DNA from: Tilletiaria anomala UBC 951
Taxonomy: Eukaryota; Basidiomycota; Exobasidiomycetes; Georgefischeriales; Tilletiariaceae
Reading direction: 5' to 3'
DNA length: 64,000 nucleotides
NCBI RefSeq assembly: GCF_000711695.1
Contig: NW_013547020.1
Coordinates: forward strand, 248,001-312,000
The notes beneath the pieces are model-generated. The model worked only from the letters and a program-made list of their open reading frames with translations, ran no database searches and was not told the DNA's origin. Positions within the stretch are counted from its first letter, which is position 1. Every line of letters starts with the position of its first letter. Both the position numbers and the translations under genes were made by a program. Below, piece after piece: positions 413-56,246 of this stretch.

Positions 413-941
413 TGCGACTACCTTCCATCGCTTGCACGGCTGCACCTGACGCTCGCACGCCTCGCCTCTCACCAGCGACTCAGGTTCAATTCGAACTCGT
501 ACGGTCAACCTTCGATGGCCATGATGAAGTAGTCGCACAAGATGAGCGATTGCGAAGCCATCTCGGCCGATAGAAAGACACCCACTATCTGGAGAGATCG
601 TTTGCGAGGCGTCGCGCCATGCTGGAAGTGTAAGTGATAGCGCATAATGCGCGAATCGCAGTCACGTGGTCCAGTGTTTGTTTTCGAGTAGAGACTGCGA
701 CTGCGCTTCTATCAATCAATTCCAGGTTGACCAGCAACATGCGCCTGCACCGTGCAGATCCATATAATTAGAGAAATGCCTTGTGCGTCAAAGAGCGCGG
801 AGGAGTCGAAGCTGCCACGCACATAGGCTCAGCGAATCCCATCCTAACCCAAAGCTCATGCATCCCGACTAGGAGAATCGTTGCAGTATTGGGGGCAGTA
901 CAGCGAGAGCTGCTCCTCCTGCCGACGGCTTCCCCTCCGCC
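413..941. promoter_or_regulatory. Shared upstream region of rad1 (minus) and the SAP-kinase gene (plus)
   Basis: These 529 bases separate two divergent start codons, so they must hold both promoters. No clear TATA element or known factor site can be named. Several short open frames on both strands show no protein-family features. Confidence 0.5.
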
Positions 942-3900
942 ATGCCGCACCAGATCCTGGCTCCTCTCCCTACCAACATTCCTCGGCGACCACATCGGCA
1001 GCTGGGCGTCGAAGCAGCGGTCGCTTTGAAAGGATCCAAAACAGGGAAGATGAAGGGCACTGGCGCAAGCTTGATCGGTAAACGTAAGGCGTCTGCGGCA
1101 GCGGCGGCCGCAGATATAGATCCTGCGGAGGAAGGGGCGCCTCCCAGGGAAGGCGGAGGAACTTGCGATTCTTCGGCATCCACCCAGTTTTCGTCAGCGG
1201 CCGTTCCGGATGCGGTGCTTGCCATGGCATCTTCTCAAGTTGTCATGGACACATCGACCCGTGCAAAAGTAGGGATCAAGCGAAAGAAGAGTGGGAAAGG
1301 CAGTGCCGGCTTTACTCAGACTTACAACTCCAACATGACAGCTGATGCTTCCGCTGCAAACCGTAATGATGCAGCTCTTTATAAACGAACCAGTTTCAAG
1401 GATATTTCCACCTCGGCGACGAACGCAAGTACAAGAGCCAGCAGCGGCAAACGTCTGATCATCACCCGCAAGCGCCTTTCGTTGGACGGCAGTCCAATGA
1501 GTCGCTCAGCACTCGGGCACGGCTTTGGCCATCTCAATCCTGACACCGAGCAGGCGCACTGCAAAAGCCGTGGAGAAGACTCTAGCCGACGCACGTCGCG
1601 TTCGTCACAGCATTCACTGATGCAACTCCCAAAGCAGAAAGTGAATGTCCAAGACACCGAGCCTACATCTGAAGGCCACACAAGCGATGAAGTTGTCGAG
1701 GCGGTGGAAGAAAATGCTGAAGATCGTGGTGAGCAGCCTGTGCGGCAATGTTGTTTGTCTGGTGGCTGCGCTGATGTTTCTTCTCTGGTTGCAGACACCC
1801 GTCTCCTCAATTCGGCGCCGTCCTGGGAGCTTAATAGACTCAGGAAAAGCGATCTCGTTCGACTACTTGTCCGTCTCGGAACCTGGGGAAGTACGAGCCC
1901 AGAGAATGCAAGCACATACAAGAAGCAAGAATTAATCGATGCCGTCGTCATGGCGCGCGATACCACATCCGCTAGGACTTCGCCAGCTGGCAGCGAATCA
2001 GGTGCAGATGCGGACGAGAGGCTCGACGGCAGCAGCACGAGTGCGCATGGAAATCTCAAGCACAGCGGATCTTCTCGTTTGCGTCAACGCAAGCTGACAG
2101 ACATGTCCAAAGGAGCCTTACACACAGGGGCACAGTCGCAACCGCAGCCCACAGAGCTCATTCTCGGTGGTCTGGACGGGCGTAGGACGAGCTATCAACT
2201 GCGTCAGTGCAAGACATCTAGCGCATCTCAGCCTCAGCCTGATGGTGAGTCCGATTCGTCTGCAAACTCGGACGACTCAAAAGCGTCGACGGATGCAGGT
2301 GATGCTGGCGCGGAGGAGACGGATACAGGCTCCATCTCTCGCGCTGTTAAAGCGACCATGCGGCAGGGCACGAAGAACCAAGACTCAGCCTTGATCCATA
2401 CTAGCCAAGTCCACCAAAAGGAAGGCATCACGCGCGCAGCCAAAGCCGCCGCAACACTCCGTGCGACGCGTACGAAGAATCGAGCACCTCTGACAGGCTC
2501 TCCCACTCCGCTGCCTTCGTCTCCATATACGTTAGGCATCAATAAGAGGCGTCTCAAGAAGCAGGTTGGGGGTAGGATGGGCGTCGCGTTCGCCGCATCC
2601 TCACCAATTCGCACGCGTGCGCGTCGTTCACGCGTAGTTGCCGCGGCGAGCGGGAGCGCGTTGAGATATAGCACGTCCAGCCTTGGTGAGGGCAGCGTCG
2701 GCGCTAGGCGTGGGTTGCGGCAGTCATCGTCGCTTTCGCGCTCGCAGCGCAATCAGATGTGGGACGCAGAAGAGGATGCACAGGAGGAGGAGGAAGTCGA
2801 GGAATTTATGGACCATGATACCTCTGCTGGCAGCCATGGGGCGAGGCAGAACATTCTGGAACGCGACGAATGCATTGAAGCAAAGCCGCCTTTACGTCAG
2901 CGTCAAGCCAAACTGAACGCCACCAACCTCATCCGCGATCATTCGCGCCACCATGATACCGAGCAATCGCAGCAGCGGACACGGGCTTCTCCCCACTCAA
3001 CATCCCGTTCTGATGAAGATGATTCCGGTGATGGAGGTGATGAAGCGTCCAGCGTCGTTTGCTCTCAGCGGGCGGCGCTTGGCCTGCGGCCTAGGACACG
3101 CTCAGTATCTACACAGCTGCTCTCAAGGCCCAGCCCCGCCTCGAGTCTCACCAGTCTTGATGATCTTGACGCCGGCGACGACGATGGTGACCAAGCCGCT
3201 GACAAGCTGCTGACGCGAGCTTCACAGCGGGTAAGACTTCAGGATGGAGGGGATAGCGAGCGTGCCACGGACTCCTCGGAGGATGATCAAAGCCGACAGG
3301 GCATGCCACCGAGCGCGAAAAAGATTCGTAGGCTACGCAATGGGAAACTCAGATTGCCGAGCACGCTGCTTCCAGAGGCCAAGACCTTGGAGGAGGATGT
3401 GAGCAGCAGTGACGAGTCAATGCCCGAGCCTGAAGATGCGGGCGACACTACCTTCAAGCCTTCGTCGGACTTCGACATGGCAGACGTTTCTATTTCCTCT
3501 GCAGCTGAGACATTTGCAAACGCGGAAGTCGAAATGGACGAAGCAGTAGACATCGATGAGGGCGAAGGTCACGTTGATCGCGATAACGACCCCATGACGA
3601 ATCCCAGCACAGCGTCTTTATCGCGCCTTTTGAAGGCGCAGCTGCTTCAGCTGTGCGAGGAACGCGGACTGCATGTAGATGCGGACCTCAAGAAAGCTGA
3701 CTTAGTGCAAACGCTGATCAGCTCGGTGAGCATATAAGTTTTGCAATTTCATCAAATATGCACGCTCACTTTCTTCTTGCAGGTTGATGCCCGAGAGGCC
3801 ATTGACAGCACATCATCCGTCGCGTCGCAATTCACAGCAAAAGGGTCTTCTACATTTTCGGGGGATCGATGGGGCCGCCATAGCAACGGTGCAACGATGC

Positions 3901-5029
3901 CTCTACTCCGCTCGCATGAGAAGCTGATTCAAGATATTCAGCCGCCAACGCCGGCGTTGACGCCGACCAATGCGCAAGCCCAGCCTGCCGAGGCGGTCGA
4001 CGAATTGAATGGCCTGGACCTCGAATCACTCAATTTGGTCGACAAGGAGATCGCGGCGAGCAAATTAGAGAAGTTGGAGAAGATCGGATCAGGCGGATTC
4101 AAAGATGTCTATGTTGGCAAGTATAAGGTCTCCAAAGCGCGCAGCATGAAAGTCGCTATCGCGGACCTCCGCGACCAGCTTACGGAGATGGACATCAAGG
4201 AACTTTCGCTGCTAAGAGACCTCAAGCACGAGAACATTGTTCGCTTCATCGGTGTCAGCATTCCAGATGACCCCAGGAACGTGCCTTGCATGATTGTCAG
4301 CGAGTTGTGCTCAAACGGAGACCTGTTCGATTACATTCGGAATGTCCCGGCTCCAAGTGACAGTGAGATCGTGAGTCTCTTTGTGCACGCAACCGTCGGA
4401 GATTCGGCTTACAAGCTTGACATGACTCCTACCCAACAGTACCGCATTCTACTCGAGATTGCGCGGGGTCTCGAGTATCTGCACCTTCGCAAACCCGCCA
4501 TCATTCACCGAGATGTCAAGTCCACAAACGTGTTGATCACGCGCGACCGCACCGCTAAGATCAACGACTTTGGACTTGCGCGAGTCAAGAACACGACGCG
4601 TTCGATGGTTCGCTCGCTGGTAGGCACGGTGAATTGGCAAGCGGTTGAGCTCTGGGTTCCCAAGCCTCATTACAACGAGAAGGTCGATGTGTGGAGCGCA
4701 GCCATGACGTTTTGGGAGGTGCTGCAGTGGCATCAGCCGGAGAAGCGATATCCTTTCCAAGGCATGAACGAGCACCAGATCTACCAGGATGTCGGCCAGA
4801 AGCGGCAGAGGTGCGTCGCCATACTCCTTTGGCCCATGAGCATACAACTTACATATCTGCGCGCATGTGCAGACCGTATACTGGCAGCACGCGCCGTCAG
4901 TTTGGAGGGGAGATCGTCCATTTGCTCGATCGCATGTGGGATCAGAATCCCAAGGAGCGGCCATCGATGGGCGAAGTTTGCGCCGCTCTTGAGGAGCTCA
5001 TCGAGTTGAACAGACGAACAAAGTCGTAG
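942..5029 (+). CDS. Two-SAP-domain protein kinase, WNK-like lysine arrangement
   Basis: Four exons: 942-3725, 3783-4370, 4440-4810 and 4873-5029, giving 1299 residues. The introns (57, 69 and 62 nt) are GT-AG and phase-consistent. The N-terminal 1020 residues are mostly disordered, Ser-rich and charged, with two SAP-like DNA-binding motifs: about 294-339 (LNRLRKSDLVRLLVRLG) and 892-928 (LLKAQLLQLCEERGL). The kinase domain starts near 1025: glycine loop GSGGFKDVYVG (1030-1040), HRD at 1147-1149, DFG at 1167-1169, and AVE (1192) in place of APE. The usual beta-3 lysine is missing (KVAIAD, alanine at 1055). A lysine sits in the glycine loop (1035), as in WNK kinases. The subdomain text resembles a TKL-like kinase family I recall from other basidiomycetes. 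A chromatin or nuclear role is inferred from the SAP motifs. A later start at 1050 is also possible. Confidence 0.8.
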
Positions 5030-8928: not shown

Positions 8929-11365
8929 ATGGCGTCCAGAGTGAGCTTCGGTGTCAACCAGAACCGTGTGACTGCCGACCGTGACTGACATGCACCGCTT
9001 GACTGTGTTCCAGGTCACTGCTTCTCGCTCGAGCCGCGCGCGAGGGCTGGGTTCAAGCCGTAGCAACGATCACCTCGATGGTGGAAAAATTGGATCGACC
9101 TCGACCGCCGCCTCCAGCGGCACCTCTGCAAAAGTACGAGCCTCCCGAGTCCCAGTCTCATCAGCCGCAGCAGCTGCTGCCGGTGGCACCCTATGCAAGG
9201 CTCCACGGTCAGGTCTCGCATCCTTGCGCAATGCTCCGCTTCACGAAGTCACCAATCGCAGTTCACGGGCTCCTTCTGCTATCAACGGAAACAGCAGTGT
9301 TAAGGATGGCTTTGAGAAGCAACCGCCAGCCAAAACCGGTTCTGCCACCGCAACTGTCACCAAGGTCCGGACATCTCGCGTACCGACGAGCAGCTCACAT
9401 CCAGACTCCATCGCCCATCACCGCAAACGCAGCGGGTCCGGCTCAACTACCGCCGTCGCGGCCTCCTCTTCTTCATCCAATCTCGCCAGCATCAGAGACA
9501 CCGCAGCCCGGATGAATGCTGCGATGGAGATCGACGAAGAAAAGGAGGAGGGAAAGGGAGCGCGGAGTCGAACGACTCGTTTGATTCGTCAGCCACCTGC
9601 GAAGCGAGTAGTCCGGAAAGCGACAAGTGCCATCACAGTCAGGTGCCATCCCACAACCGTCTCTTCCGACGCGACCGTGCATGCACAATCAGATAGTATT
9701 ACAGGATCCATGGACGTGGATGCTGCTGCTGCCAGGCCATCATCGCTACATGCCGACATAAAGGAGGCGAAGCTGCACGATGAGGAGGAGGAGGACAACG
9801 AGCAGTTGGAGGGAGGGGAAGAGGATGATGATCTACACGACTCAGAGCTGGAAGAGCTGGAGGGAGTACCGAGCGATACAGAAGATGAGGACGCAGCCAT
9901 GCACGGTCTGACAGATCTGAAGAGTATCCCTCAAGGGCAGCAATTGCGAGCACCTTCTAGCAGTGCTGGCAGTGCAAGCGATATTTCATCCGCAGTCCCA
10001 ACTGCGGCAGGTACGGCGGAAACGACACCGTGGATGAACTCGAACGAGAAGTTTGACGACCAGGCTGACGTATTCGCCGAAGAAGTTGAAGTCAACTTTG
10101 ATCCCGAGTGCATCATCCACATTCGGCCCGAGTTTGTCGACGCCGCTGAGCACAAGAAGGCGCACATCATACGTAAGTATGATGAGACGGTCATCCGGCC
10201 ACAGGCCGAGGAGGCGAGGCAGCAGCGACAGGCGCTACTGCTGAACGGACAGATTTCGCAGGAGACGGCGGCTCTTGATGATGAGTTGGCATTGATGGGC
10301 CTTGATCCAGACGAGGTGCGCGATACTACCATGGTGGCGGAGTACTCAGAAGAGATCTTTGCGTACATGAGCGAATGCGAGATGAGTACCATGGCCAAGC
10401 CAAATTACATGGACTTTCAAACCGAAATCCAGTGGTAAGTCGACAATTGGTCGGTTTTAAAGAAGGCTCAACTGACACGTTTCTACATTAGGTACATGCG
10501 GCAAACACTCGTCGACTGGCTTCTGCAAGTTCACGTGCGCTACCACATGTTACCCGAGACCCTTTGGATCGCGGTCAACATCATCGACCGATTCCTCAGC
10601 ATGCGTGTCGTTGCTCTGCAGAAGCTCCAACTGGTCGGTGTGACGTCGATGTTCATCGCGGCCAAATACGAGGAAATTCTCGCACCCAGCGTGGAAGAAT
10701 TTGTCTTCATGACCGAGAATGGATACTCGAAGGAAGAGATCCTTAAAGGAGAGCGCATTATCCTCTCGGTAAGTTTAATCCCTCGCGCTGCATAGCTTGT
10801 TCCGCAGTGTATTGAATGCCCTGCTTATCTTTCCTGCAGACCCTCGACTTCAACATTTCGAAATATTGCACACCATACTCATGGCTTCGCCGGATCTCGA
10901 AGGCTGACGACTACGATATTCACAGCCGCACGCTCGCCAAGTTCTTGATGGAGGTCACTCTCACAGACCATCGGTTCTTGCGTGCAAAGCCGTCAATGAT
11001 TGCAGCGATGAGCATGCTTCTGGCAAAGAAGATGCTTGGACTCGAATGGGTGAGTGCCCACCCGGTCCTTCGTTCGCCTGCTCTCCTTCACACTGATTCA
11101 CGAACCTGTTCCCAATCTTGTCCAGAATGACGCTTTCGTCTACTATTCCAAATTTACAGAGCAGGAGCTCGTACCCGGTGCCAACCTTATGCTTGAGAAG
11201 CTCATTGATCCGTCATTCGAGGAGCAATTTGTCTGCAAGAAGTACAGCAACCGAAAGTTCCTCAAGGCCAGTATCTATGCACGCGAATGGGCGCTACAGA
11301 ACCATAGAAGCGTCGCTGCAGCCGCTGCGGCCGAGGCCGGCGAGGAGTACGACACCTCAGTTTAG
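8929..11365 (+). CDS. clb1: B-type mitotic cyclin (Clb-like)
   Basis: Five exons: 8929-8940, 9014-10434, 10492-10768, 10840-11049 and 11126-11365, giving 719 residues. All introns (58-76 nt) are GT-AG and phase-consistent. The first exon holds only MASR. A classical destruction box RSGLASLRN lies at 69-77, marking APC/C-dependent degradation. A long disordered and acidic region follows to about 410. The cyclin box opens at about 477 with QWYMRQTLVDWLLQVHVRYHM and continues with NIIDRFLSMR, FIAAKYEEI, and the second fold LDFNISKYCTPYSWLRRISK. Cyclin B binds Cdk1 and drives entry into mitosis. At 719 residues it is longer than the roughly 400-500 of yeast B cyclins, through the N-terminal extension. 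The symbol follows the smut B-cyclin family; assignment to Clb1 rather than Clb2 is not certain. Confidence 0.88.
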
Positions 11366-26468: not shown

Positions 26469-28277
26469 TCAGTACACCGGGAATTGAGCATCAACATCAT
26501 GAGAATAAGCGGTCAGACCGCCTCTGACATCCACAAAATCCAGTTTGACTCGCTCTCTGGCTTGTGGCCCTTCCCCGCCCTTGTGCCCCTGACGGATCGT
26601 CTCCTCGCGTCGCAGGAGTCTGGCAGCCTCTAGCGAGTCGTTTCCACGCCTGCACAGAAGCCTTATTTGGACCGGCACTGCCGAATGTGCGTGCGAACCA
26701 GATGCAACCAAATTGTGGATATCTGCGAGCGCGGCAGAAGGCGCGCGGCGGATCCTATCAATCGGCATGTCTTAAGCAAGAAGAAGCCAAGTAGACACGT
26801 GTATGAACCAAATGTCAGATTGAGAAAAACGGGCGAGCGGGCCGAACAAGCACTCACTACAAGTATCACCCAGCTGGACGATACCGTACTCCACGGCGGG
26901 CCGTACGTCGATGGTGATTCCTCCAGCCCCCGGTTCGTTCTCTTCGGCTCTTATTGCGACGCGTTTGAGCACGATCGGCTCGAGCCTTTGCCCACCATTC
27001 ACGTCGCATTGCGCCCTGTCGGCTCCTGGTGCGGCTTTGAGACCGCAGAATGAGACATAGTCTTCACTTTGCAAGTCCTCGATCATTGAAGATACCTCTT
27101 GCCCCGGTTCGCTTGCCTCTTCGGCTCCTTCAGCGCCGGCTTTCTTGTGCAGATGGGCTCGCACGAGCAACGGATCACCACAAGCTCTGCATGTGCCTAG
27201 TCGCCTGGGCCGCAGCTTGATAGTTCTGAATGGTTGCATAGGCGATGTGATAGGAGAGATGAGGGTCATGACGCCTGCCGGTGCTGCCTTTCGTCCAAGT
27301 GGAGTTTCTGTGCATGCCTGTGCTGTCTCCCTTTCCGCGTTCGCAGCATGCTCTAAAGCGTCTTCGCTAAACTCATCCCCAATTCGGGCGATGAGGCGCA
27401 CTGCTTCCGTTGCTTGCAGCGTGCCAACAAGCCCGGTGATGACGCCGAGCACGCCGCTATCCGCGCAGTCTGTCACATGTTGCGGAGATGGTGCAACAGG
27501 GAAGATGCATCGATAGCACGGTCCACGGGGGTGTGTGAGGCGCCGTGAGCGCGTTGACGCGCCTCCTGTCCTTTGCTCTTCTAAGCTTGGTTCTCCTGCT
27601 TTGCCCTTATCCGCTAGCTGATGGCTTGGGACCACCTCCTCCCTTGGATCTAGCCACCGGTTCCAGACACCCAGCTGGCCTTCATAACCCTGTGCCGCAG
27701 CAGACACCAACATCCTATCCGCAAGCACAGCCGCGTCGTTGAGTAAGTACCTCGTCAGCGGATTGTCTGTGCAATCGAGCACAATATCGTGCCCCTGGAC
27801 CAGCTGTAGGGCATTAGCGGGAGATAGCGGTTCAACGAGAGGATCCACATTGATGTGAGGGTTGATCTGCAAGGCGGACAGAGAAGCGGAGGACGCTTTG
27901 GGTTGCCCAATACGCGCGTCACTGTGCAGAATCTGGCGTGCAAGATTGGACCTCTCGACAACATCGTGGTCAATGATGGTAATATTTCCTATAGCGTCAT
28001 GGTAAGCGCCACAAATTGCTTCCATCAGCTTGTCTCATTCCCAGCACTCGCCCTCGGAGCTCCCTTGCTCCAGCTCACCAACACCAGCGGCAGCAAGATA
28101 CTGTATGGCCGGACACCCGAGTCCACCGGCGCCGACGACAAGTACGCGTGCGTTCTTGAGCCGAAGCTGCGCTTGCAGGCCAAAGTCAGGCAAGATCATC
28201 TGCCGACCATAGCGAGTGTACTCAGGTAGCGTCAGCGGGTAGCTTGCGCTCGAAGTAGATATGCTTGACGGATCCAT
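26469..28277 (-). CDS. uba4: Sulfur-carrier adenylyltransferase/sulfurtransferase Uba4 (MOCS3)
   Basis: Three exons on the minus strand: 28277-28079, 27988-26858 and 26770-26469, giving 543 residues. Introns of 90 and 87 nt are GT-AG with matching phase. The E1-like half has the nucleotide loop [10 protein letters not shown] (residues 45-54), LDCTDN and YEGQLGVWN. Two zinc-binding pairs are seen, CYRC (224-227) and CRAC further on. The adenylation-domain cysteine is in TDCADSG at about 240. The C-terminal rhodanese domain carries the active-site cysteine in LLCRRGND at about 483 and ends [17 protein letters not shown]. Uba4 activates Urm1 for tRNA thiolation and protein urmylation, and in many fungi also the molybdopterin synthase small subunit. 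The acidic and low-complexity inserts in the middle are longer than in yeast (440 residues). The ATG at 28277 is the first in frame. Confidence 0.93.
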
Positions 28278-38243: not shown

Positions 38244-38723
38244 GGTGATTGTGTGCCTACCGATCTGGTACACCTGGAGGCTTTGTTCTGCGTCCTAACT
38301 ATGGATGCTGGGTGCTGCTCCTTGGCGATCTACTCGTGACGAAAGAAAGATCGGAACATCGCCGTGTACATCACTTCGTAATGCATCCGTCCATGAATAA
38401 GATGGCAAGAGGGTCAAAGCCAGCAAGCAGAGCTATGATGCTACGCACATACCCGAGGCTGGCTTTGCTATGCGCTGTCGCTTACTCGCTCCACCGACGG
38501 CGGAACCGGGAACCAAAGACGAAGAGGCAAAGTCAGCGTTGAACGGACAAAAGCCAACCCGAGACTTGACCGTACGAATACACACCTCTGCATCTCCACC
38601 ATCCGAAAGCTTTGCAGCACGACACACGAGGAGAGGATCGCCAGGGCAATCATCCCAGTCACAGGCACAGGCTGCGCTTCCCCCACTGCATTGCAGAGGA
38701 GCGCGGAACAAAACGTCGACGCG
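38244..38723. promoter_or_regulatory. Shared promoter of the SAC3 gene (minus) and thr1 (plus)
   Basis: 480 bases between divergent ATGs. No TATA or factor site can be named. An upstream in-frame ATG for thr1 lies at 38691. Confidence 0.45.
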
Positions 38724-39794
38724 ATGAGTGCATCGTCATCGGCGCGGAAGTTCAAGGTCATTGTGCCATGTACCTCCTCAAACATCGGGCCCGGCTTTGA
38801 CGTCGTTGGCCTATCCCTGTCACTCTACCTGACCCTGTCGGTCACCGTAGATCCATCAGCATCGAACCGAGCGCCAACATTGGCATACACAGGGGAAGGC
38901 GCCGCGGAAGCACCTCTAGATCCATATAAGAACCTCACCACGCGGACGGCACTATACGTCCTCCGGTGCAACGGCGTGGGTAGCTTCCCACATGGTGTCT
39001 CGATACAGGTCCACAATGAAGTGCCTTTTGGACGAGGATTGGGAAGCTCCGGTGCGGCTGTCATCGCTGGAATTCTGCTCGGTGACGCGCTAGGGAAGTT
39101 GGAGCTCCCCAAGGAGAGACTGCTCGACCACGCGCTCATGATCGAGCGCCATCCGGACAACGTCACCGCGGCTCTGATTGGCGGATTCGTTGGATCGTAC
39201 CTGCTCGAGTTGTCGCCAGAAGAAACAGAGGCAAAGGACGTGCCGCTTTCCGAAGTTCTGCCCGAGTACCCACCGGACGCCGGGGAAGAATGGGGCAAAG
39301 ACCCACCCACACCGCCGCATGGCATCGGGCACTTCATCCGCTTCGGCTGGGCAAAAGAGATCAAGGTCATCGCCATCATTCCGCAATTCGAAGTCAGCAC
39401 TGCTAAAGCAAGAAGCGCACTGCCGAAGCAGTACTCGCTCAAGGACCTCGTGTTCAACCTGCAACGCTTGGCAGTGCTCACAACGGCGCTGGCACGCTCG
39501 CCACCGGACGAATACCTCATCTTCCAGGCCATGCAAGACCGCGTCCACCAGCCGTACCGCAAGCACCTCATCCCGGGCCTTCCACGCATCCTTGCATCCG
39601 TCACGCCGCAGTCACACCCCGGCCTTCTCGGCATCTGTCTCTCAGGAGCAGGCCCTACCATCCTGGCGCTGTCGCTCAACAACCAAGAAGCTATCGCTGA
39701 GACCATTTGCGACGAGTTCAAGAAGGAGAACATCGATTGCAAAGTGCGCTTCCTAGAAGTGTCCACCGAGGGTGCGCAGGTTGTGGAAGAGTAA
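38724..39794 (+). CDS. thr1: Homoserine kinase (Thr1)
   Basis: Single exon, 356 residues (yeast Thr1 has 357). It phosphorylates homoserine with ATP, the step before threonine synthase. GHMP-kinase motifs are intact: VIVPCTSSNIGPGFDVVGLS (12-31), the phosphate-binding glycine-rich motif PFGRGLGSSGAAVIAG (101-116), ERHPDNVTAALIGG, and the C-terminal motif GICLSGAGPTILAL. No intron is present, unusual beside its neighbours. The ATG at 38724 gives MSASSSARKFKV and fits the family length; an ATG at 38691 would add eleven residues. It converges with the CUE-Smr gene. A plus-strand AATAAA lies 190 bases past the stop. Confidence 0.95.
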   Translation: MSASSSARKFKVIVPCTSSNIGPGFDVVGLSLSLYLTLSVTVDPSASNRAPTLAYTGEGAAEAPLDPYKNLTTRTALYVLRCNGVGSFPHGVSIQVHNEVPFGRGLGSSGAAVIAGILLGDALGKLELPKERLLDHALMIERHPDNVTAALIGGFVGSYLLELSPEETEAKDVPLSEVLPEYPPDAGEEWGKDPPTPPHGIGHFIRFGWAKEIKVIAIIPQFEVSTAKARSALPKQYSLKDLVFNLQRLAVLTTALARSPPDEYLIFQAMQDRVHQPYRKHLIPGLPRILASVTPQSHPGLLGICLSGAGPTILALSLNNQEAIAETICDEFKKENIDCKVRFLEVSTEGAQVVEE

Positions 39795-40030: not shown

Positions 40031-42841
40031 TCACTTGACCCCACGAACGGTGATGACACCTCTATGATGATCCACGTCGTACTTCCACCCTTCTCTGTCG
40101 AGCATCTTGATCACGGCAGGTTTGATAACCGCGATATTCCGCGGCGAGTGCCGTCCCACGCCCGTGATGACGTGCAGCGGACCGAGGTATGCCAAGCCTG
40201 AGCTGACATGCGAAGGGCGCGAGTACCACTCGTTAACGCATTCCTTGGTCACGCTGAGCGCTTCATGCACCGTCAAGTCGTGCAGATCGATCGTGTTGTC
40301 CCTTGCACGCCCCGCCGCGAATCCTCCATCTGCATCTGCTGCTGATCGATGGCGGCCAGACTCCACACCGAGGCGGTGGGCGCGCCGCTCCTCTACAAGC
40401 GCCTGAGCTGCGCGCATGCTCCATGCGCGCGCTTTCGCATCAAGGCGCCGCGCTTCGTCTGCATAGTACCACGCCACACCGCTCCGCGCCTGCGCGCCGA
40501 TGCCGGATCGCCACGCAGCAGCGGCGCTCCGCAGTGCCTCTGCGCGGCGCGCGCGATACTCGTTGGCCATGAGCCGGGAATCACTGTACGCTAAGCCAGT
40601 GCCCGCATTCGAGCTCTTGCCAGCCCTCGAGGACGCCAGACGCCATTCGGCTTCCTCCTCCGCTGCGGTGCACACGCGCGCGGCGGAGGCGGGTAGGACG
40701 ACGGCATCGCTGGCAAGTTTCGCAGCAGCCTGCGCGGCAGCTCGCTGTCGCACCGAAAGCGGCCGACTCGCGGCGCCTGCGTAGCCTGATCCTGATCCTC
40801 CGCTCCATGCAGCGTGTCCACCTGCACCGCTCTCGCCTGGCTTGAGGTAATATTGCTCGCCGCGCGAGAAGCGCCCTTCGCTCGACGCAGCGACAGCCGT
40901 GTAACCAGTGACGCCAGAGGAGGCATCACTTCTGATAGTGAGCCTGCCAAGCGGGTCCATCACGTCCAGCAGCGAAGAAGAGTTGTCCAGCATTGCACTC
41001 TGGACGACAGCCTGCAGCTGGATCAGATCGATCGCCGCGTCCTGCCTACCTTTGGTCGCGCAGAATGCTTTGGAAGCATGTGCGAACGACGTCCCCGTCA
41101 AGGTCGCGATGCCCTCTGCGATTGAGATGGAATGATTCGCCGCCTCGACCGGGGCTCCCTTGGAGGGAGGGGCAGCATCCAGGCTCGCGAGGCCGAGCGG
41201 CGCGTTCTGCTCAGCGGTGGCGTGCACGAGGCGATTGAAAGCGTGTACAAGGTTGAAATCTGCGCTGTTGTACGCTGCCGTGACCTTGGACATGTCCATG
41301 TTGAGCAAGGTTGACAGCTGCGCAAGGACAGAAGATGCAAGGAGCCACCGGTTGTCGTTCACTGCCTTGTCATCGTCTGGATCGCGTGTGCGTTCGCGCT
41401 CGATCTGCGCCAGCCTTCGCGCATACTCTTCGTCCGTCTCGCCGAAGAGCGCCTCGTCACCTCTCTCTCCTTCAGCAACGCCTCCATTGATTGCAAATTT
41501 TGATTGACGTCCATTGACCAGCGGGGAGGATGTGCTGTTACTTGACACTTTTTTGAAGCGCTGGTCTTTGACTGCCCCGCCGTGGCGCACGTCAGTAAGG
41601 TTGATCTTGACTTGCTGTGCGCGTCTAGATGCTGCGTGTTGCCCACCGGCATGACCACCACCATGATTCTTAACAGAGACATTTGTCATGGCAGGTGTCG
41701 CGCCAATGCCACGTCCAAGTGCCGGCAGCCCCGCTTTGAGCCTTCTCTGGTCTTCCTGCAGTCTCTTTCGAGCCGCTTTGCTCTTTTTGCCTTTGAGTGA
41801 TGCCTTCTCGTCTCCAAACTGGAGGACATCGTCTTTCAGCCCGCCATCCTGCACGTCTTCCGCCCTCGTGGAGCCAGTCAGGTCACTGAGGTCGCCAATG
41901 GACGAGGACAAAATACTGCTCCCCGTCCCTGCCGCCACATTTAGATGCAATTCGGATCTGCTGAGTATAGTGGCAGAGGATGCGAATTCAGCCTCCTCGG
42001 CTTCTGCCAGGTCGATGGTTATAAGCGTGTCAAGTGCAAGAGAGATGTTGCCATCGCAATCGCCGAAGAGGATCCCGGTGAGGAACTCTGGCGTTCGTGC
42101 TGGGAATGCATGTTGAAGGAATGTCAGCGGCGCCACGTCTTCATCCAAGCCAGAGACCACCAAATCGGACGGGTCTGCCTTGGCTGGCTTTCCAACATCT
42201 TCTTCCTCATCGGTCAGGTTCAAAAGCTCATTGTCGAGATGCGAATGGGCGTCGCGACCTTGCGCTGAACGCCCTTGCGACTGCTGGCGGGCCCATTCGT
42301 CTAGCACCTGCTTGACACAAAGTTCGGATGCACTCGATTCCTCGGATGCCAAGTGCAATGAAACAGTCTCTTTTGGTGTATTTGACGCGTCCTTGACTTC
42401 CCGCGGCGGTTGTGCAGCGACCTTAAGCTTGTCCGACAAGGCCGCCTTGCCTCTTCTTTGGCGATGGTGGCCTTTTGCGCAGGTATTCGGTGAATCGGGC
42501 GTGAGGTGATGCTCAGTGGGCGTAATATTAGCTGCACTCGAATCTGATGAATAACCTTGTCTATCTGGCGCTGGAAGTGATGAGTGCAAGTATGATTGTG
42601 GCTGCCGTCTGGCCTCCTCGGCCAGTGTGTTTAGGACCTCGGTTGCAGATTGCAGTGTTTGATCCGAATCACTGCATATAGCCGCGGCCAGAGCTTCGTA
42701 GAGTGGCGGGCAGAATTTCGACTGAGTTTTGGGTAATACAGTCGGAGTCGTGTCAAAGCCAGGAAATAGTGGAACTGTCTCGCCGTGAGAAGGCATGCAT
42801 GCTGCAGGACTCACTCTTAGCTGATCGTAGAGGTCAGTCAT
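40031..42841 (-). CDS. CUE-DUF1771-Smr domain protein (Cue2/N4BP2-type)
   Basis: Single exon of 936 residues. A CUE-like ubiquitin-binding segment lies at about 230-275 (LTFLQHAFPARTPEFLTGIL, then GNISLALDTLI). A long low-complexity middle part follows. A DUF1771 helical pair occupies about 755-815 (ANEYRARRAEALRSAAAAW, ADEARRLDAKARAWS). The C-terminal Smr domain begins TIDLHDLTVHEALSV and contains HVITGVGRHSPRN, so both Smr motifs (DLH and TGxGxHS) are intact. Yeast Cue2 has CUE and Smr parts and cleaves mRNA at collided ribosomes in no-go decay. This protein is twice as long. The role in mRNA cleavage is inferred from the intact Smr motifs. It converges with thr1. Confidence 0.85.
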   Translation of the reverse strand: MTDLYDQLRVSPAACMPSHGETVPLFPGFDTTPTVLPKTQSKFCPPLYEALAAAICSDSDQTLQSATEVLNTLAEEARRQPQSYLHSSLPAPDRQGYSSDSSAANITPTEHHLTPDSPNTCAKGHHRQRRGKAALSDKLKVAAQPPREVKDASNTPKETVSLHLASEESSASELCVKQVLDEWARQQSQGRSAQGRDAHSHLDNELLNLTDEEEDVGKPAKADPSDLVVSGLDEDVAPLTFLQHAFPARTPEFLTGILFGDCDGNISLALDTLITIDLAEAEEAEFASSATILSRSELHLNVAAGTGSSILSSSIGDLSDLTGSTRAEDVQDGGLKDDVLQFGDEKASLKGKKSKAARKRLQEDQRRLKAGLPALGRGIGATPAMTNVSVKNHGGGHAGGQHAASRRAQQVKINLTDVRHGGAVKDQRFKKVSSNSTSSPLVNGRQSKFAINGGVAEGERGDEALFGETDEEYARRLAQIERERTRDPDDDKAVNDNRWLLASSVLAQLSTLLNMDMSKVTAAYNSADFNLVHAFNRLVHATAEQNAPLGLASLDAAPPSKGAPVEAANHSISIAEGIATLTGTSFAHASKAFCATKGRQDAAIDLIQLQAVVQSAMLDNSSSLLDVMDPLGRLTIRSDASSGVTGYTAVAASSEGRFSRGEQYYLKPGESGAGGHAAWSGGSGSGYAGAASRPLSVRQRAAAQAAAKLASDAVVLPASAARVCTAAEEEAEWRLASSRAGKSSNAGTGLAYSDSRLMANEYRARRAEALRSAAAAWRSGIGAQARSGVAWYYADEARRLDAKARAWSMRAAQALVEERRAHRLGVESGRHRSAADADGGFAAGRARDNTIDLHDLTVHEALSVTKECVNEWYSRPSHVSSGLAYLGPLHVITGVGRHSPRNIAVIKPAVIKMLDREGWKYDVDHHRGVITVRGVK

Positions 42842-44918
42842 GTGGATTTTCGCATCTCCGACGAGAGGCTCTGATTGAGAGCGACCCGCCGCGACCTAAG
42901 CGATAGAACAGCCAGTCGCCCTCGACAGGACGTACAGGTGTCCTTCGTTAAAGATGTCTGCACGCAGGCGAAGCTATCGAAATCCGCGATAGGCGTCACT
43001 CATACGGGTGGGGGAGGTACAGTCATTTTTGTGTCGAATTTTGTCGAAGCAGTGGCTAGCTGTGCATGCTGGATATGGCCTTGAAGACGGTAACTAGGAC
43101 CCTCTGAACACTCTACCTTGACCCTTACGGAGGAGGTTATCTGACGTTCGAAGGGTGAGCCGCATCGCTCACAGTTGCGCAACCCTAAAGCCCACACCAA
43201 ATGTTATGATGGGCCACCCAAGAGTCGAGATGAGTGAAGAACCCCCCAAAGGCATCATATCTTTGTTGCGACCATCGGCGCTCACAGTGAATCAATCGTC
43301 AGAGGTGCAGAATCACTCTACAAAGGCAGGGATGATGACTCGGTTCATAGAGGTGCATATACCACAGGCGAACACGAATGATCAGAGGTGGGAGCTGTTG
43401 GATATGCCAATGGCGGAGCCCATGCCGCGGCAGGACTGAATGTCGTACCCCGGGTCTCGAGAATGCTTTCCAAAAGCAATTCGCCAAAAGAAAGTGCGGT
43501 TAGAATGCGTTTGAGCAAACTCGGCCGTTCCCCATTCGGTGGAGTAAATTACATGCAATGCTCTTCCATTTGTTCCCATTCCATTCCCTTGCTTGGGTCG
43601 GCCGGCACAGCTTTCATCACTACGCCGGATTGCGGCGAATCAGGGTCCAATGGCCAAAGTTTTTCTTCTATCAATATCAAGGAGTCTACATGACATGGTG
43701 CTACCGAAGCAGGGAATGTAGATGTTGTCTACGAGATGTTACCAGTCAAGGCTATAGGAAAGAGAGCCAAGCAGCGAGGGTGAGGGTGATGACTGGTGGA
43801 AATGCTAGCTCGATGCTACTCAGAAGGATGTGGCGAAAACATGCATGGTTGTCGTCACCCAACGACATGAATGCATGGTCACGCGATCCTTTCCATCATT
43901 GATAACAGCTTTACCCACAATATAGGTTTGCGTGGTGCGCTGCACTTGGTGCAGGCGCGGGGGGTTAGGGGGATCCGCAGTTGGCCAACATCACAACGTC
44001 CTGTCGAAAGTCGGCAGAGACTTTGGGAAGCAGCACTAGCTTTCCAAGTAAAGAGACGGAATTTGCATTCTGCACTGATGGAGGAGCTGTGCTTTCAGAA
44101 ACTGTAACATAAAGGCAAGGCGCGATGATCCATCCGTGGGGCGAAATGCATTAATTAGGTGGGGCACAATTTGCTGCTTCAGCTCAAGGATGCGCCTGAA
44201 TCCAACTGGATGGCTCTATGAAAGTAGATCAGTACAACCTATGGGCCCCTGCCATGGCTTCGATGAGCTTCCACGTCCCAAAGTAGTGACAATGTCGAGC
44301 CTTGGAACCTTGTAGAAAGCTGGAACCTGACAGACGTGCGGCTTTGGGATCAATGAAGAAGACGAATAGTCAATAAGACTCGCATCGGTGCCACTCCGAG
44401 AAAGTCCTTGCCAAGCCGTCCAAATCGCGTGTGTTACACAATAGGAGCAGGCGAGGAAGGGCTATCGTAGAGTGCAAAGGCCAAATAGGCAATATGAACC
44501 TTGTACAAGGTGAAGGCAGGGAAGTTGGAAGTGAAGCAGTGAAGCCGTAAGTGCAAGGTTGCTGGGGCGCGTACTCTGTGAGGAGGCGCCACAGGTTCGA
44601 GCGGAACGGGGCTGTAGCCTTTTCCAAGTGCCACCAGAGGCGCACCACACAAACCTATATTGTGGGCAAATCAACAACCTCACTCCCTCCGTCTCGCCTC
44701 TGCTTGATACCCCCCGACGAGATCGACATAAGGATTGGGTGACCATTACACATAGCTCATACGTGTCACTTTCGCATTTCTAACGGCTGCAGAAAGGAGC
44801 AAGCCCTTGGCTGGGAAAGACGGGACGGACGCTCACGCCAACCTACACGCCCCATCGGACGACAGACAGGCCTACCACACTACAAAGCATCGCTGCCTCG
44901 CGTGATCCCTTTGCCGCC
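42842..44918. other. 2.1 kb gap, divergent promoters of the CUE-Smr gene and ypt6
   Basis: Bounded by divergent starts. Frames in between are short and lack family features. The last 100 bases before ypt6 are C/A-rich. Nothing else recognised. Confidence 0.45.
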
Positions 44919-49308: not shown

Positions 49309-50921
49309 ATGGAGGGTACTGCAGATCTCACTTTTAATCAGCTGCTGCAGCGATGCTTTGCGCTCGCGGCCGGCGATACCGGCGCCGGCAGCTTCGTTGC
49401 AGCATCAGCAGCAGGAATGAGGAGCAGCACAGCCCAGGACCCAGCGCTGCCGCTTGTCTCGCTGCTCGAGCTGGCCGCCCGGCGCGCTGCACAGCTTGCG
49501 CTGGTCAACCCGGCCGAAGAGACACTGCGCGAGGTGTCGACCGGCGCGCTGCGCTCACTCCTGATCCATAGCCTGCGAGGCGAGGCTGAGGCCAACGTCC
49601 GCACCGCCTTTGACGCTAGGGCCGAGCGGCGGCGCAGGCTGGCGAACAGCAAGGTGAGTGCATGGGGATAGGCTGTGGCTTGCCCCGGGCGTGGCAAGCG
49701 TCATTGCTGATGTAACGTGTTTATTTTTGGTCGCTGCGATGCACTCAACAGGCGCACTACAACGTCTTCCTTCACTCTCTTCAAGCGCTCAAGATCATCC
49801 CGCCCATCACAGACTCGCTGCTCAAGGCGCATGCGCAGCTCTACGCGTCAGACGACGGCGAAGACGGCGGAGAAGCATCGTCAGCATCACGCACCGCGCT
49901 CCCTCCGAACGCAGCGCTCGCCGCTTCTGCGCGGCGGCGTGAGCTCAAGATTGCGCTGTTCAAAACCGAGCGCAGCCTCAAGTCCTCCCTCGAGCTGTTC
50001 CGCAGCGCCTTTTCTACAAGCAACAGGCTGTGGAGCGGCTCAGCGGCGCTGTCGTCACCTGAAGATGTGTTTTATGACGCCATGTTCCCACGGCGGCCGC
50101 GCAGGAAGGGCGGCGAAGGCGGAGAGGAAACGAACAGCGACGGGGACCAAGAGGAAGCGGACAGCGATGATGATGATGAGGACAAGGACGATGAAGAAGA
50201 AGATCGAAGCGCAGACGGCCAAGTGGTAGCAGGAGCAAGCAGCGACTCAAACACCGGCGTACCACGTACCGTTCGCGCATATATCCTGCTCTTGCTCAAC
50301 CTTCACGCAGTGAAAGCGTCGCAGCAGCTCGAGTCGGCACAGCAAGAGCTCCAGCTGCTCGCATCCATGCCAGAAGCAGCAGCCGTATCAGAAAACGGAT
50401 CTGGGCTGTCAGGGGCCGACCTCCGTCAGCGCGCACGCCACGCCGGCAACCCCGACTGGAGGCTCGATCGCGGTCCCGGAGGCAGCGGCGCGCTGTCCGG
50501 GCCGTTGCTCGACGACAAGGGTAAGCCGCTGCGCCCCTTTGTCATTACCGATGGTACCGATAACACCGGCAGCGGCGCTGCAGAAGCTGCTGTGCCAGCG
50601 GAGATGAGCGCACGAGAGCGCGCGCACGCCGAGGTCTTCCGGCCCTCGCACCGGCTGCCGACCATGTCGATCGACGACTACCTCGCCGAGGAGCGGCGGC
50701 GCGGCAATATCATCGAGGGTGGCGGCGCGGCGGCCGCGGCGCAGCCGACGCCGCGCGAGGCGCGCGCTCTGCGTGCAGAGGGACACGGCCCGGGCGGTGC
50801 CACCACCAGCACGACTCAGGCCGAGGAGGCGGACGAGGAGCGCCGAAGGGAGCAGATCGAATGGGACGAGTTCAAGGAGGCCAATCCAAAAGGCGCAGGT
50901 AACACGATGAATAGGGGCTAA
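49309..50921 (+). CDS. tap42: PP2A regulatory subunit Tap42 (alpha4/IGBP1 family)
   Basis: Two exons, 49309-49653 and 49752-50921, with a 98-nt GT-AG intron; 504 residues (yeast Tap42 has 366). The TPR-like helical N-terminal domain covers about 1-330: LRSLLIHSLRGEAE, then AHYNVFLHSLQALKIIPP, RRRELKIALFKTERSL, and TVRAYILLLLNLHAVKASQQL. The C-terminal landmark of the family is clear: RPFVITDG, EVFRPSHRLPTMSIDDYLAEE, RRGNIIEGGG, and the invariant end NPKGAGNTMNRG. Tap42 binds PP2A-type catalytic subunits and acts downstream of TORC1. An acidic insert of about 40 residues (from about 263) in the helical domain makes the protein longer than usual. It is divergent from the ZIP gene. Confidence 0.93.
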
Positions 50922-51328: not shown

Positions 51329-54300
51329 CTACTCGCCGACCACACTCTGGCGGTGAGGGTCGATATAGAAGCGGAAAACCTGCATGGTCGGCGACATGTA
51401 CTCGCTGTATTGCCTGTGCAGCGCTCGCTTCGCCAATTTCCGTTGTGGTTTCTCGCTACTCGCACTGATGCTGTTGTGGCTGTTAGGCAGGCGTATGATC
51501 ATCGCAGGTTCGTATTCTGCCGGAGACGAAGGAGCACTGTTCGTCGACGCCGAATTCGACAGCGCTTCTATGCTCTCGTTCGGGTGTAAGTACAGCGGCG
51601 AAGAAGGTGCGTCGATCTCGACCGTCCGTGGTGACGGCGGTGGTGATGAACTTCGGCCCAGCAACCGGGGGCGAAGGCCGGGATCGGATGACGGTGATCT
51701 CGTCCGGCCTTGGAGGGAACGTCGCGACGATGATGATGAAGGCGACTGCAGCGTATTTCTGCTCGAGCTGGAAGGACCTCGTTCCAGTACCTCTCGTGTT
51801 GCAAAGAACGACCAGGCGTCGATGTCTGCCTCATTGGAGATCAGACTGCGCCCGCGCGGGTTCGACTCGGATTTCGACAAGGATGGCCCGGGATGGTGGT
51901 GGACAATGCCCGAGGCGCTTGTCGCCAAACCAGAGGCAAGGCTGGGGCGCCAGAGCATGCGCGGAAGCTCAGACATATCCTCATCGGACCCTGTAGTGTC
52001 ATCGAGGAACAGCCCCAACCCGGAGCTTATCTTAGCACCAGCCCGGAAGCGCCTCTTGGTCGAGCTGGACGTGGACGTGCGACAAGGCGTACCCGGCGAA
52101 GAGTGGCGCGCGTGTGCGGCATCGTACTGCGCCGTACCATGCGCCACTCTGTGAGACATGCGCTGCGGCAGGTGATAGCCCAGGCCTCGGACATTGCTGG
52201 GCGCCTTCCTGCTGCCGTTCGCCCCTTGCTGCTCTGGATGCAGCGTGACAGCTTCGAAGCGCATTCCATCGGACCCGCTCGCCATAGACATCACTTCCTC
52301 ATGGTCGTCGTTGCTCGCTGCCATCGATGATGGCGACGGGTTGATCTCCATGCCGAAGAATTCGTGCAACGCAGAGGCCGCATCGTATGGCACAGTGGAA
52401 GAAACCCATGAACGAGTAGGGATCCTCGGTGCGAGTGAGTTTGGTCGACTTGCAACCGAGTATGCGCTTCCTGTCGATGCTGTGGACACGGGCCGGAAGA
52501 GATGATCATGTTGCATTGAGGTGCGAGCGTCCTGATGACCATGAGAGGAATTGCGCAGTGTGTGTCGCTTGTCAGTCTGATCGACGTCCAATAAAAATCT
52601 TACTTGTCCTTTTGTCTTGGTAATCGATCTGGCGAGCTGAGCTTTCGCTTCTGGCGGACCGTTCAGCAGCAATTGCTGACGCACACTGTGCAGCATTGCA
52701 TTCTCCGCACTGGACTCGGTGCCGCGCCGCGGGCGCGTCTTGATGGGCACAATAGGTCTGCTCTCCTGCGTCGGCAGCGTCCCAGCGCGCCTTCTGCGGG
52801 GAGATGGCCTGCTAGGCACCACGAGCAGCTGTGCAATCAGACGAAGGGCTTCCTCGATCGCATCGAGGCCATCCATGTCTGCAATAGCATCGATTGTGCG
52901 CCGGTAGCGCTCGCGTGAGGGCGCTGGCATTATTCGAGCACGAGTTGGCGTCACGGTCATGGCTTGCGCATGGGTCTTGATCATGTGCATGCTTGGAATG
53001 CGGCTGGGTTTCGAATTGATGCCTTCTTCATGAGTCGCAGGTTCCGGGCGGGACTGGGGCGTGATACTAGAGTGTCCCACCGGCTTTTCGGAGAAGTCAG
53101 ATACATCTTCCTGTACGCTTTCGGTGGTGTCCAAGAAGTTCATAGTAGTGGCGCCGGCTGTCATTGAATGTTCTGAGCTACTCGGGCTGATCGCGGCCAG
53201 AATATCACAGCTGCCTAGTCTCTGAGGGATAGATTGCCCAGCTGCTGCAGATTGCCAATCGGCAATCGTTTCTGCCATGTAGTGAAGCAAGTCAGAACTT
53301 GCGTGTTGGTATAGCTCTCAGTTTTACTGCACAACTCACCATTCAACGTATTGATGAGCTTTGCCGCCGGCTGCCTTGAGTCCGAAGCCGCATTTGTATC
53401 GAGGCTAACGCCGAGACCTTGCACAGGCGTCGGCAGAGAGACAGACTGGAAAGAAGAGCTGCCAACGAGAGTCTCCTCGCTTGAGTCCCTCCTGACGAAG
53501 GGGGGGCGTGTCGGCTTCGGGTCACATGTTAGCCCGGCAGGAGCAAGCATGTCTTGATCAAATGGCCGAGCAGCAGAATCGATGTCCGAGTTGACACGTG
53601 GGACTTGTGAAGAGGCTGCCCAGGAGGTTTGAGTATCGTGCTTTGGCGCGGAAGAGTGCCAGTCCCCATGTTGTCTGTTTGGGCTCGCGAGGATCTCCAT
53701 GCTTTCACGATCTAGGGCAGGAGAGGGTGCCGAGATGAGCGGAGAGTCGACATTGCGCCAGGCAGTCGGAGAGTATAGGTATACTGCGGCTGAGAGGGGT
53801 GAAGCGCTTGCTTGGTGAATTTGACCATTCGTGGCGCCGCGCGACGTCGAGCTGATTTGTCTGGGGTGGGCAGCGGATTGCAAGGACACAGACACCTGCT
53901 GCGCACCGCCAGGAGGTCTTTCCGAAGGATACGATCCTTCAGCCGAGCCTGTAGCGTTCGGGCCTCCAGCGTTCGCTTGTGTGGCGTGATTGGCAGAACC
54001 CTCGTAGAGGTCGACCTTGAAGTCCGCAAAGCGAGGTGTGTTCGGAAGGCTGACGGAAGTCGGCAAGTCTCCATAATCCTTGGTTCTGTATCGAAATAAG
54101 CCTCCCGTCTTGACGCTACCGCTGCCAGGCAGACGGGACCAGAGGGAAGCTCCCTGTGCCTGCGCCACAGGTGTCTCGTAGGGTGAAACGAGTCGTTGCA
54201 CATGTCCATCGATTATCACACTCGGGGCGCTCTGTACCTTGCGAGATTTCGGTCCGGAGCGATTGCCGCTCCACCAGCGTTTCAGCCTACCACCTGTTGT

Positions 54301-55158
54301 CGAGCCGCCTTTTCGATTGCGTCGAGAGTTTGGCCAGTTCAACGACCCGTCAGCGGAAGAACGGTCAGAGACGAACGACGTGGAGCCACCGAGCTTTGTG
54401 GCATCGTCATCGGAGCCATCGTGATACCGAGAGCGAGCCTGCCGGTCCAGGCTATCGATGCTAGCTTGGAGTTCTGTTGCTTTGCGCTCGAGGTTACGGA
54501 CGCCATGGCGATAGACGCATATGCCGACGACAGACATAGCAAGTATCAGGACAATGATTCCGAAGACAGACATGCCTAGATACGCAGCGAAATGAGGCGG
54601 CGGGGGCTGCCAAGCAGAGGGCAGGTATGCACTGCTGCTTGCGTCAGAGTCTGCATTAGAGCCCGAAAACGAGGCCTCAGCGGAAGGGCTGCCAGCACTG
54701 AGCGATGGATGTGCAGCCGCCACCGCCGCAGTCGAGAAAGCAACTGCCGCTGGTGATGTGTAGACGAAGCCGTATGGGTCCGTCAGAGTGAGCGCGCTTG
54801 TGTATGCGATCCGCGGCTGGATACCGGTTGTGCCCGCAAGTACGAAGGAACCGGCATTGATGATGCGTTTGCTACCTGCGGGGTCAGGACCGTACTCAAC
54901 CTTGTTGCTCCCCTTATCGGTGCTATAGGGTCTTGTGTGGGCTGGACTCCTACTACCGCCACCATTTCTGGCTCCATTACCCTTGGTATCACCATTGACG
55001 TCTGCTACATCTCGTGGGGCTTGCCGATGTTGTTGGGCCCTCCCTCTTGGTGTAGACGGCATGCGGGAATAGCGCCGGGCAGGGCGGCCGGCAGCTCGAG
55101 TAGGAAGCGCTGGGTCATAAGCGAGTACCCCGAATGGTGCCAGGTCCCGCTGGTCCAT
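51329..55158 (-). CDS. Large single-pass membrane protein of unknown function
   Basis: Two exons on the minus strand, 55158-53340 and 53271-51329, with a 68-nt GT-AG intron in phase 1; 1253 residues. I do not recognise the family. Residues 1-190 are polar, Ser/Ala-rich and contain basic patches. One membrane helix is clear at about 192-215 (MSVFGIIVLILAMSVVGICVY), followed by a short coiled coil (RNLERKATELQASIDSLDRQ). The remaining 1000 residues are disordered and Ser/Pro-rich with scattered Arg-rich patches. There is no cleavable signal peptide, so the helix probably acts as a signal anchor. The C-terminal 45 residues are more ordered (RKLAKRALHRQYSEYMSPTM then VFRFYIDPHRQSV) and may be the conserved functional part. 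The layout recalls fungal wall-stress or polarity scaffold proteins, but this is only a loose resemblance. Confidence 0.75.
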
Positions 55159-56246
55159 CTTGACCGTGCGTCCGCTCAAGTATATGCTGATAGCACCTCC
55201 TGCGCCGCGTGGAGGGTCAGCAAAGCATGCGTGAATGAGTACGATGATACGGCGACGACCGTGAGCTTGCTGCCAGCGCTTGCTTCTTGACAAGGCGATG
55301 AAGCACACAGACTCTAGTGGATGGTGTTGATGGTTAGAAGTACAGAATTGAATGCATTCACACAAGCCATCACACCTACATCCAGAGCTCAAAGGGCGAC
55401 GAGGACTCGGTCAAACGGCGAGAAACACGAGGATTGAACAAACCCTTTCCGAGTCCGTGCTCATCGGTCATTCAGATGTCCGAGTGAGGTTGTGAAGACT
55501 GCACAGCCAAACGGATGTTCATGTAGAGGATCGTGGCAAGAGGCTTCCGGCGTTTCAGGCACATTTGCAGCACACCTATGAGTCTCTTGCTGTCATTGTT
55601 TCAAGCGTCGGATGCTCGGAGCGGCACTAGCAAGTTAGCCGTTGGCTAAGGCACATCGAAAGGTCATCCATGTGAGGACTTCAGAGAGCGAGGCTGCGAA
55701 GAGTCTGCTCGTAGAGAACGCAGGATACGAATATGAATTACCGGAGCGAGGAGGGCGAGGGGCGAAGAGGCTTGCGAAGTCCGGGTGTTGACGCATTGTT
55801 GGTGTCGTCATCGATAGGCGCGCTCTATCAATATTCAGTAGACCGATCTCGAGATACCAAGGGGGAGTGTGCCTGGATTGCCTAGTCCATTGATATGATG
55901 CTGAATGCATCGATGCAGACAACTCACGTTCTTCCGCGGAGAGAGAGTGTCTGTGTGTCTCGCAACTTGTTGAAGCTTGGAACGAGTAAAATGGGGAAGA
56001 TGGATGCGATCCTAGCCGTTGATGGGTTAATGGTGTTGACGCTGTCCGTTGTGCTGGGCGGGCGCGACCATGTAGGCCAATGCAGATCACGTGACATTCC
56101 AAGTTCCTCGATTCCTCTCTCTTTCTAGTCTTCACTTTCAAGAGCAAGTCACCTTTCGCCAGTCTTCCGACCTTTTAGAAAGTCTGAGGGCATCAAGCAA
56201 GAATCCGCCTCGAACAGGTAGACGCTGTTAGCCGAAACTATTTACC
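55159..56246. promoter_or_regulatory. Divergent promoters of the membrane-protein gene and mrpl51
   Basis: 1.1 kb between divergent starts. The open frame upstream of 55158 on the minus strand has no ATG. Nothing else recognised. Confidence 0.4.

Follow-up and report, generated by a model that had tools for sequence, protein, structure and literature searches.

A stretch of 64,000 nucleotides from contig NW_013547020.1 of Tilletiaria anomala UBC 951 (the window) carries a four-exon gene for a protein of 1299 amino acids that ends in a protein kinase domain (Table 1). The introns of the splice model have GT..AG ends, the frame is open, and the kinase part of the model is continuous in homologues. 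The putative start is the first in-frame ATG past an upstream stop. An earlier note on this DNA had described positions 4081..5029; this span is the kinase end of the larger gene, and its residue numbers agree with the splice model, in which the sequence KVAIAD begins at residue 1051. The public T. anomala UBC 951 protein P0172 (376 aa) is 100% identical across 84% of the query. Compared with the splice model over 3726-5029, P0172 starts late, is missing part of exon 2, and has a tail that is read on from 4811. Removing 4811-4872 as an intron restores the C-terminal kinase part that is found in homologues.

Table 1. Position, strand and supporting evidence of the kinase gene and its features in the window
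Feature	Position	Residues	Strand	Evidence
Whole gene	942..5029	1299 aa	+	exons 942-3725, 3783-4370, 4440-4810, 4873-5029
SAP-like motif	3612..3719	891-926	+	profile of 26 early-fungal SAP segments, i-E 4.8e-6
Protein kinase domain	4068..4987, exon by exon	1024-1286	+	Pfam: PF07714 E 2.4e-46 (1024-1286), PF00069 E 2.5e-43
Glycine loop GSGGFKDVY	4086..4112	1030-1038	+	gene model and homologue alignment
Candidate relocated lysine (AAA), third-glycine position / beta2 start	4101..4103	K1035	+	K in 293/294; aligns with WNK1 K233; first beta2 residue in the P0121 model
beta3 (VAIK) position without lysine (GCG)	4161..4163	A1055	+	A119 G111 S34 C29 T1, K 0/294; aligns with WNK1 C250
alphaC glutamate, expected partner of the lysine	4200..4202	E1068	+	E in 293/294; aligns with WNK1 E268
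HRD	4506..4514	1147-1149	+	D in 286/288 rows with a residue
DFG (WNK: DLG)	4566..4574	1167-1169	+	D and F in 292/292 rows with a residue
AVE instead of APE	4641..4649	1192-1194	+	middle residue P81 V35 A4 S1; E in 121/121

A scan with NCBIfam models matched only distant kinase models, all far below their cut-offs. The T. anomala genome has one member of the family; the next matches are other kinase-like places with 24-43% identity. Other long frames in the window match a ThiF-family protein (26775-28034, minus strand) and, on the plus strand, a GHMP kinase (38439-39791), TAP42 (49716-50918) and an arrestin (61706-63178). The long frames 8972-10435, 40034-42895, 51332-53317, 53218-55410 and 59665-62085 gave no Pfam match at E 1e-5.

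The kinase had been described as SAP-fused. A SAP-like motif is indeed recognized in the window protein by the profile built from its early-fungal relatives (Table 1), but Pfam reports no SAP domain there, so that the description stands only in this weaker form. Among 54 aligned family members, 27 have a Pfam SAP match at E<=0.05. At a cut-off of 1e-3, the early-fungal profile finds 101 of 121 sequences in the basidiomycete set, and none of the 121 when these are reversed or shuffled. A second SAP-like stretch around residues 290-345 found no support, since the profile gave one match only in the window protein. The early-fungal members are short proteins made of SAP and kinase, e.g., of 363 and 370 aa. 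SAP domains in general are linked to DNA or chromatin, and a nuclear or chromatin role of the kinase may be proposed by analogy.

Conservation of the lysine position in the family

The earlier note had read HRD and DFG as intact, VAIK as KVAIAD with its lysine gone, and the glycine loop as GSGGFKDVYVG with a lysine inside it; each of these readings holds in the splice model. Homologues were collected in three protein searches, from which the best 120 of 1355, of 2029 and of 903 matches were taken, giving 354 distinct proteins. Family members among the matches listed come from Basidiomycota, Mucoromycota, Glomeromycota, Zoopagomycota, Basidiobolus and an aphelid. The second and third searches reach Glomus, Rhizophagus, Mortierella, Mucor, Coemansia, Dimargaris, Basidiobolus and the aphelid Amoeboaphelidium. 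No ascomycete name was seen among the matches listed, which come from searches not targeted at ascomycetes. The trait had been suspected to be common to other basidiomycetes; this is the case, and it extends well beyond them.

In the query and its first 120 homologues, the loop position is lysine in 121 of 121 sequences and the beta3 position is Ala (76), Cys (23) or Ser (22), never Lys. Across all 354 proteins, the loop column holds K in 300 and Q in six, and has no residue in 48. We also counted only the rows that are ungapped from the loop to beta3 (n = 294, from the best 120 of each search), which leaves out the 60 proteins with a gap in this region. A single Q breaks the run of lysines at position 1035 in these rows, and the beta3 position, where Ala and Gly are by far the commonest residues, holds no lysine (counts in Table 1). 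The omitted rows include the fragments P0180, P0189, P0191, P0201 and P0202, which enter the alignment with a Q in the lysine column, as well as P0333, P0324 and P0276, which have K, D and T in the beta3 column, respectively, and a missing stretch in the alignment. Two exceptions were kept, P0192 with Q at the place of the loop lysine and P0337 with T at beta3. A reliable lysine at position 1055 was thus seen in no row. A member with the usual beta3 lysine might lie lower down, as the rows are the best 120 of each search.

The Q of fragment P0192 and of the five Q-starting fragments is probably an intron-end CAG read in frame, since more complete gene models of this red-yeast type show K there. 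The six fragments suggest an intron adjoining the lysine codon in red-yeast or rust-like relatives.

The residue at beta3 follows lineage. Rows on the basidiomycete side have A, S or C, with G in only three of 183, and early-branching rows mostly have G (108 of 111). Across the family rows there is hardly any variation at the HRD Asp, the HRDxK Lys, the Asn, the DFG Asp or the alphaC Glu. The APE motif had been noted to read AVE. This is correct, but it is a minor lineage variant in which only Pro is replaced by Val (35 of 121). It does not mark the kinase as dead, because the Glu is kept in all 121.

Several members deserve separate mention. The aphelid-clade proteins P0347, P0349 and P0351 read AKGG[FY]KDVY, in which the first loop glycine is gone and the loop lysine is kept. 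Divergent mushroom members from Mycena and Favolaschia (P0196, P0204 and P0211), perhaps extra copies, keep the lysine shift; P0196 and P0204 form long branches in a tree of 51 rows. In the same tree, P0023, which carries the name of the fern Adiantum nelumboides, falls among the smut relatives of the query; the plant assembly may have been contaminated by a fungus.

As a control, we looked at the other kinases of the same genome. The control is small: it drew on 59 unspliced six-frame loci, in which some places occur twice, and nine separate kinases among them had a readable N-lobe. The beta3 lysine is present in all nine and the loop lysine in none. Chance or a sequencing slip can be ruled out as the origin of the unusual arrangement, since the same swap is common to hundreds of homologues. 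In the aligned rows seen, the lysine swap is confirmed as genuine and near-absolutely conserved. The trait would have arisen before the split of fungi and aphelids.

Kinship with TKL and WNK kinases

The swap resembles that of WNK1, as the earlier note had pointed out. In our alignment, K1035, A1055 and E1068 fall on K233, C250 and E268 of WNK1; the WNK1 sequence used is identical to PDB 5w7t over the domain. The rest of the domain had been judged TKL-like rather than WNK-like, which would make the move of the lysine independent. We built trees with the two trait columns removed. In the 51-row tree, the family forms one clade (98) beside TKL/TK (94). A 30-row tree recovers the family at 100/99 and places it with the TKL/TK kinases B-Raf, CTR1, TNNI3K and EGFR at 92/94 (not starred). 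When DLK and ZAK were added and EGFR was taken out, the family again stood at 100/99 and joined B-Raf, CTR1, TNNI3K, DLK and ZAK at 95/95, with WNK outside. The best reading of the trees is that the family branches with TKL kinases and that WNK lies outside this group, which bears out the TKL-like description.

Searches with predicted or known structures point in the same direction. A PDB profile search with early-fungal members returned an EGFR chain first, followed by CTR1, TNNI3K and B-Raf. The fold searches were led by TK/TKL kinases such as MerTK, RON and CTR1, with TNNI3K at rank 5 in one of them; the 50 rows shown of either fold search contain no WNK, which carries no weight on kinship. 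When WNK1 was searched against the T. anomala genome, 50 matches were returned, the best of which (C40, 30% identity) is a kinase with the VAIK lysine. The window kinase ranks 13th, with 42% identity over 106 residues. These matches were inspected in part only, and the search says nothing on the absence of WNK from T. anomala.

The alternative is that the family represents fungal relatives of WNK, in which a single move of the lysine predates the split from WNK and the resemblance to TKL was acquired secondarily. The same two positions are changed in both groups, and mean identity does not separate them, being as high to WNK1 (31.1%) as to the TKLs (30.5-33.6%). Forcing the family and WNK into one clade costs 8.4 log-likelihood units in the 30-row tree (AU p 0.052) and 10.0 in the tree with DLK and ZAK (AU p 0.125), so that the joint clade is not rejected; WNK is represented here by two rows, one of them a provisional plant sequence, and the program warned of long branches. 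Nevertheless, the best trees without the trait columns keep WNK outside, the family has DFG and not DLG in every row with a residue, and the leaders of the PDB profile search are TK/TKL kinases. We regard common descent with WNK as unlikely, although it has to be weighed. The claim of an independent move therefore survives as the best reading of the trees, short of a rejection of the joint clade: independence from WNK is likely but not proven, and a shared origin is disfavoured (AU p 0.05-0.125).

The predicted active site

We consider it probable that the gene encodes an active TKL-group kinase, single-copy in the T. anomala genome and bearing a SAP-like motif, whose ATP-anchoring lysine is supplied by K1035 and not by beta3. 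An AlphaFold model of the relative P0121, made from 54 sequences (mean pLDDT 83.3), has a TK/TKL fold. The loop lysine is the first residue of beta2 (78-86), the old lysine site lies within beta3 (92-100), and the Glu is in helix C (106-116). In the proposed mechanism, K1035 would reach the ATP phosphates from the third-glycine/beta2 site and form a pair with the helix C residue E1068, just as K233 does in WNK1, and the small residue (Ala, Gly, Ser or Cys) at the old beta3 site would leave room. Phosphotransfer would then likely be ordinary, with the lysine coming from beta2.

By a residue-based rule, the T. anomala kinase would be classed as a pseudokinase, as its VAIK lysine is lost. It would then bind nucleotide weakly or not at all and serve as a scaffold, the loop lysine being kept for some other reason. 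However, the near-invariance of the HRD Asp, the HRDxK Lys, the Asn, the DFG Asp and the alphaC Glu speaks against decay, which would be expected to hit some of these residues somewhere between smuts and an aphelid, and the family has its lysine exactly where the working lysine of WNK stands. A pseudokinase is accordingly a very improbable outcome.

The kinase could also be a chloride or osmotic sensor like WNK, acting through the vacated beta3 site, as the earlier note had hinted. The small beta3 residue and the loop lysine are as in WNK, and two further places agree, with F at the place of WNK1 F283 in 21 of 22 family rows and L at the place of L371 in 22 of 22. Other places do not. The residue at the place of L299 is I in 20 of 22 rows, that of E388 is N in 21 of 22, and that of L369, which belongs to the DLG motif of WNK1, is F wherever a residue is present (292/292). 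We take F283 and L299 to belong to the chloride pocket of WNK1. According to a 2026 paper, WNK1 L369F and WNK3 L295F are chloride-insensitive, and mutants of E388 are less sensitive to chloride (PMC13397483). Chloride sensing should therefore not be assumed for the family, because its DFG matches a chloride-insensitive mutation of WNK1. Judging from these columns, the family does not preserve the chloride site of WNK as a whole; the hint is weakened, sensing by the WNK route is unlikely, and we regard a WNK-like chloride or osmotic sensor as very unlikely.

A broader version can be put forward as speculation. The WNK active site may have evolved independently in fungi and aphelids, in a TKL kinase that bears SAP, and the beta3 pocket left vacant beside DFG (Ala, Gly, Ser or Cys) might bind a regulatory ligand or ion other than the chloride of WNK. 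The kinase could then act as a nuclear sensor of ions, osmotic state or metabolites in many fungal phyla. We hold this to be quite unlikely as a whole.

Another basic residue of the N-lobe could take over the role instead. K1051, which the earlier note had named as an alternative, is not conserved (K 53, R 33, T 31 and other residues 4 in 121 rows) and is ruled out as the substitute. K1067, the neighbour of the alphaC Glu, is lysine in 198 of 294 rows and is likewise ruled out. R1058, three residues past the old lysine site, is R in 288 of 293; it is nearly ruled out by the aphelid clade, where P0349, P0347 and P0351 have N, D or S and keep the loop lysine. A takeover of the beta3 lysine's role by R1058, K1051 or K1067 is extremely unlikely, for even the highly conserved R1058 is dispensed with in those three sequences and would be expected, by strand alternation, to face away from ATP, and the two lysines vary. 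Of the basic residues of the N-lobe, only K1035 is retained throughout the family as sampled. With K1051 variable and R1058 missing from the aphelid clade, it is the best candidate for the replacement lysine.

Comparison with known kinases

Loss of the VAIK lysine is commonly taken as loss of activity. According to a 2007 survey, WNK is the only functional family of eukaryotic protein kinases without the VAIK lysine, and its loop lysine is needed for catalysis (PMC1821047). Our literature search, with most subscription journals outside its coverage, found no account of a lysine shift in this fungal family. The present data confirm an observation stronger than that first made from the window, namely a TKL family that has a WNK-type lysine and ranges from smuts to an aphelid, and suggest that a group of kinases other than WNK has acquired the unusual active site. 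With the relocation repeated in another widespread family, nature provides a replicate that separates what the move of the lysine needs (a loop lysine, a small beta3 residue and the alphaC Glu) from the specialities of WNK (DLG and the chloride pocket). In addition, a fungal protein that would be presumed a pseudokinase becomes an enzyme open to testing, and the site might interest those who seek fungus-selective kinase inhibitors.

Another fungal kinase lineage related to tyrosine kinases, FslK, was described in 2014. It is reported as lost in Ustilaginomycotina and Pucciniomycotina and missing from two Cryptococcus species (PMC3937382). In contrast, the loop-lysine family occurs in Ustilaginomycotina, Pucciniomycotina and Tremellomycetes. 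The two appear to be different lineages, because the family is present where FslK is reported missing. Family members P0058, P0060 and P0096 carry the source label 'TKL/TKL-ccin', which is a class name only and occurs in four papers of the literature searched. One of these, on the conserved fruiting-body circuitry of three mushrooms, includes in a table a TKL-ccin gene that is not necessarily a member of the loop-lysine family (PMC4082614).

Replacement of the missing lysine from beta2 is also described for POMK (SGK196) in a 2023 review (PMC10211241). POMK differs from the family in that it also lacks canonical HRD and DFG motifs and its substrate is a sugar. CAK-chloro, of the choline/aminoglycoside-kinase-like group, resembles the family in that the positive charge has moved from position 72 to 55, according to the 2007 survey (PMC1821047). 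Unlike the family, however, it does not belong to the eukaryotic protein kinases, has Met at 72 and Arg at 55, and has Phe in place of the alphaC Glu.

The TKL kinases CTR1, TNNI3K, ZAK (MAP3K20), DLK (MAP3K12) and B-Raf are among the nearest in the tree and in the PDB searches. All five keep the beta3 lysine and the loop glycine, whereas none of the 294 family rows has the beta3 lysine. WNK1 shares with the family the absence of that lysine, the lysine at the third-glycine/beta2 position and the conserved alphaC Glu. The two are told apart by DLG in WNK and DFG in the family, and by the SAP-like motif, which is a feature of the family. At beta3 the family has Ala, Gly, Ser or Cys, and WNK1 has Cys; the plant WNK used for comparison presumably has Asn.
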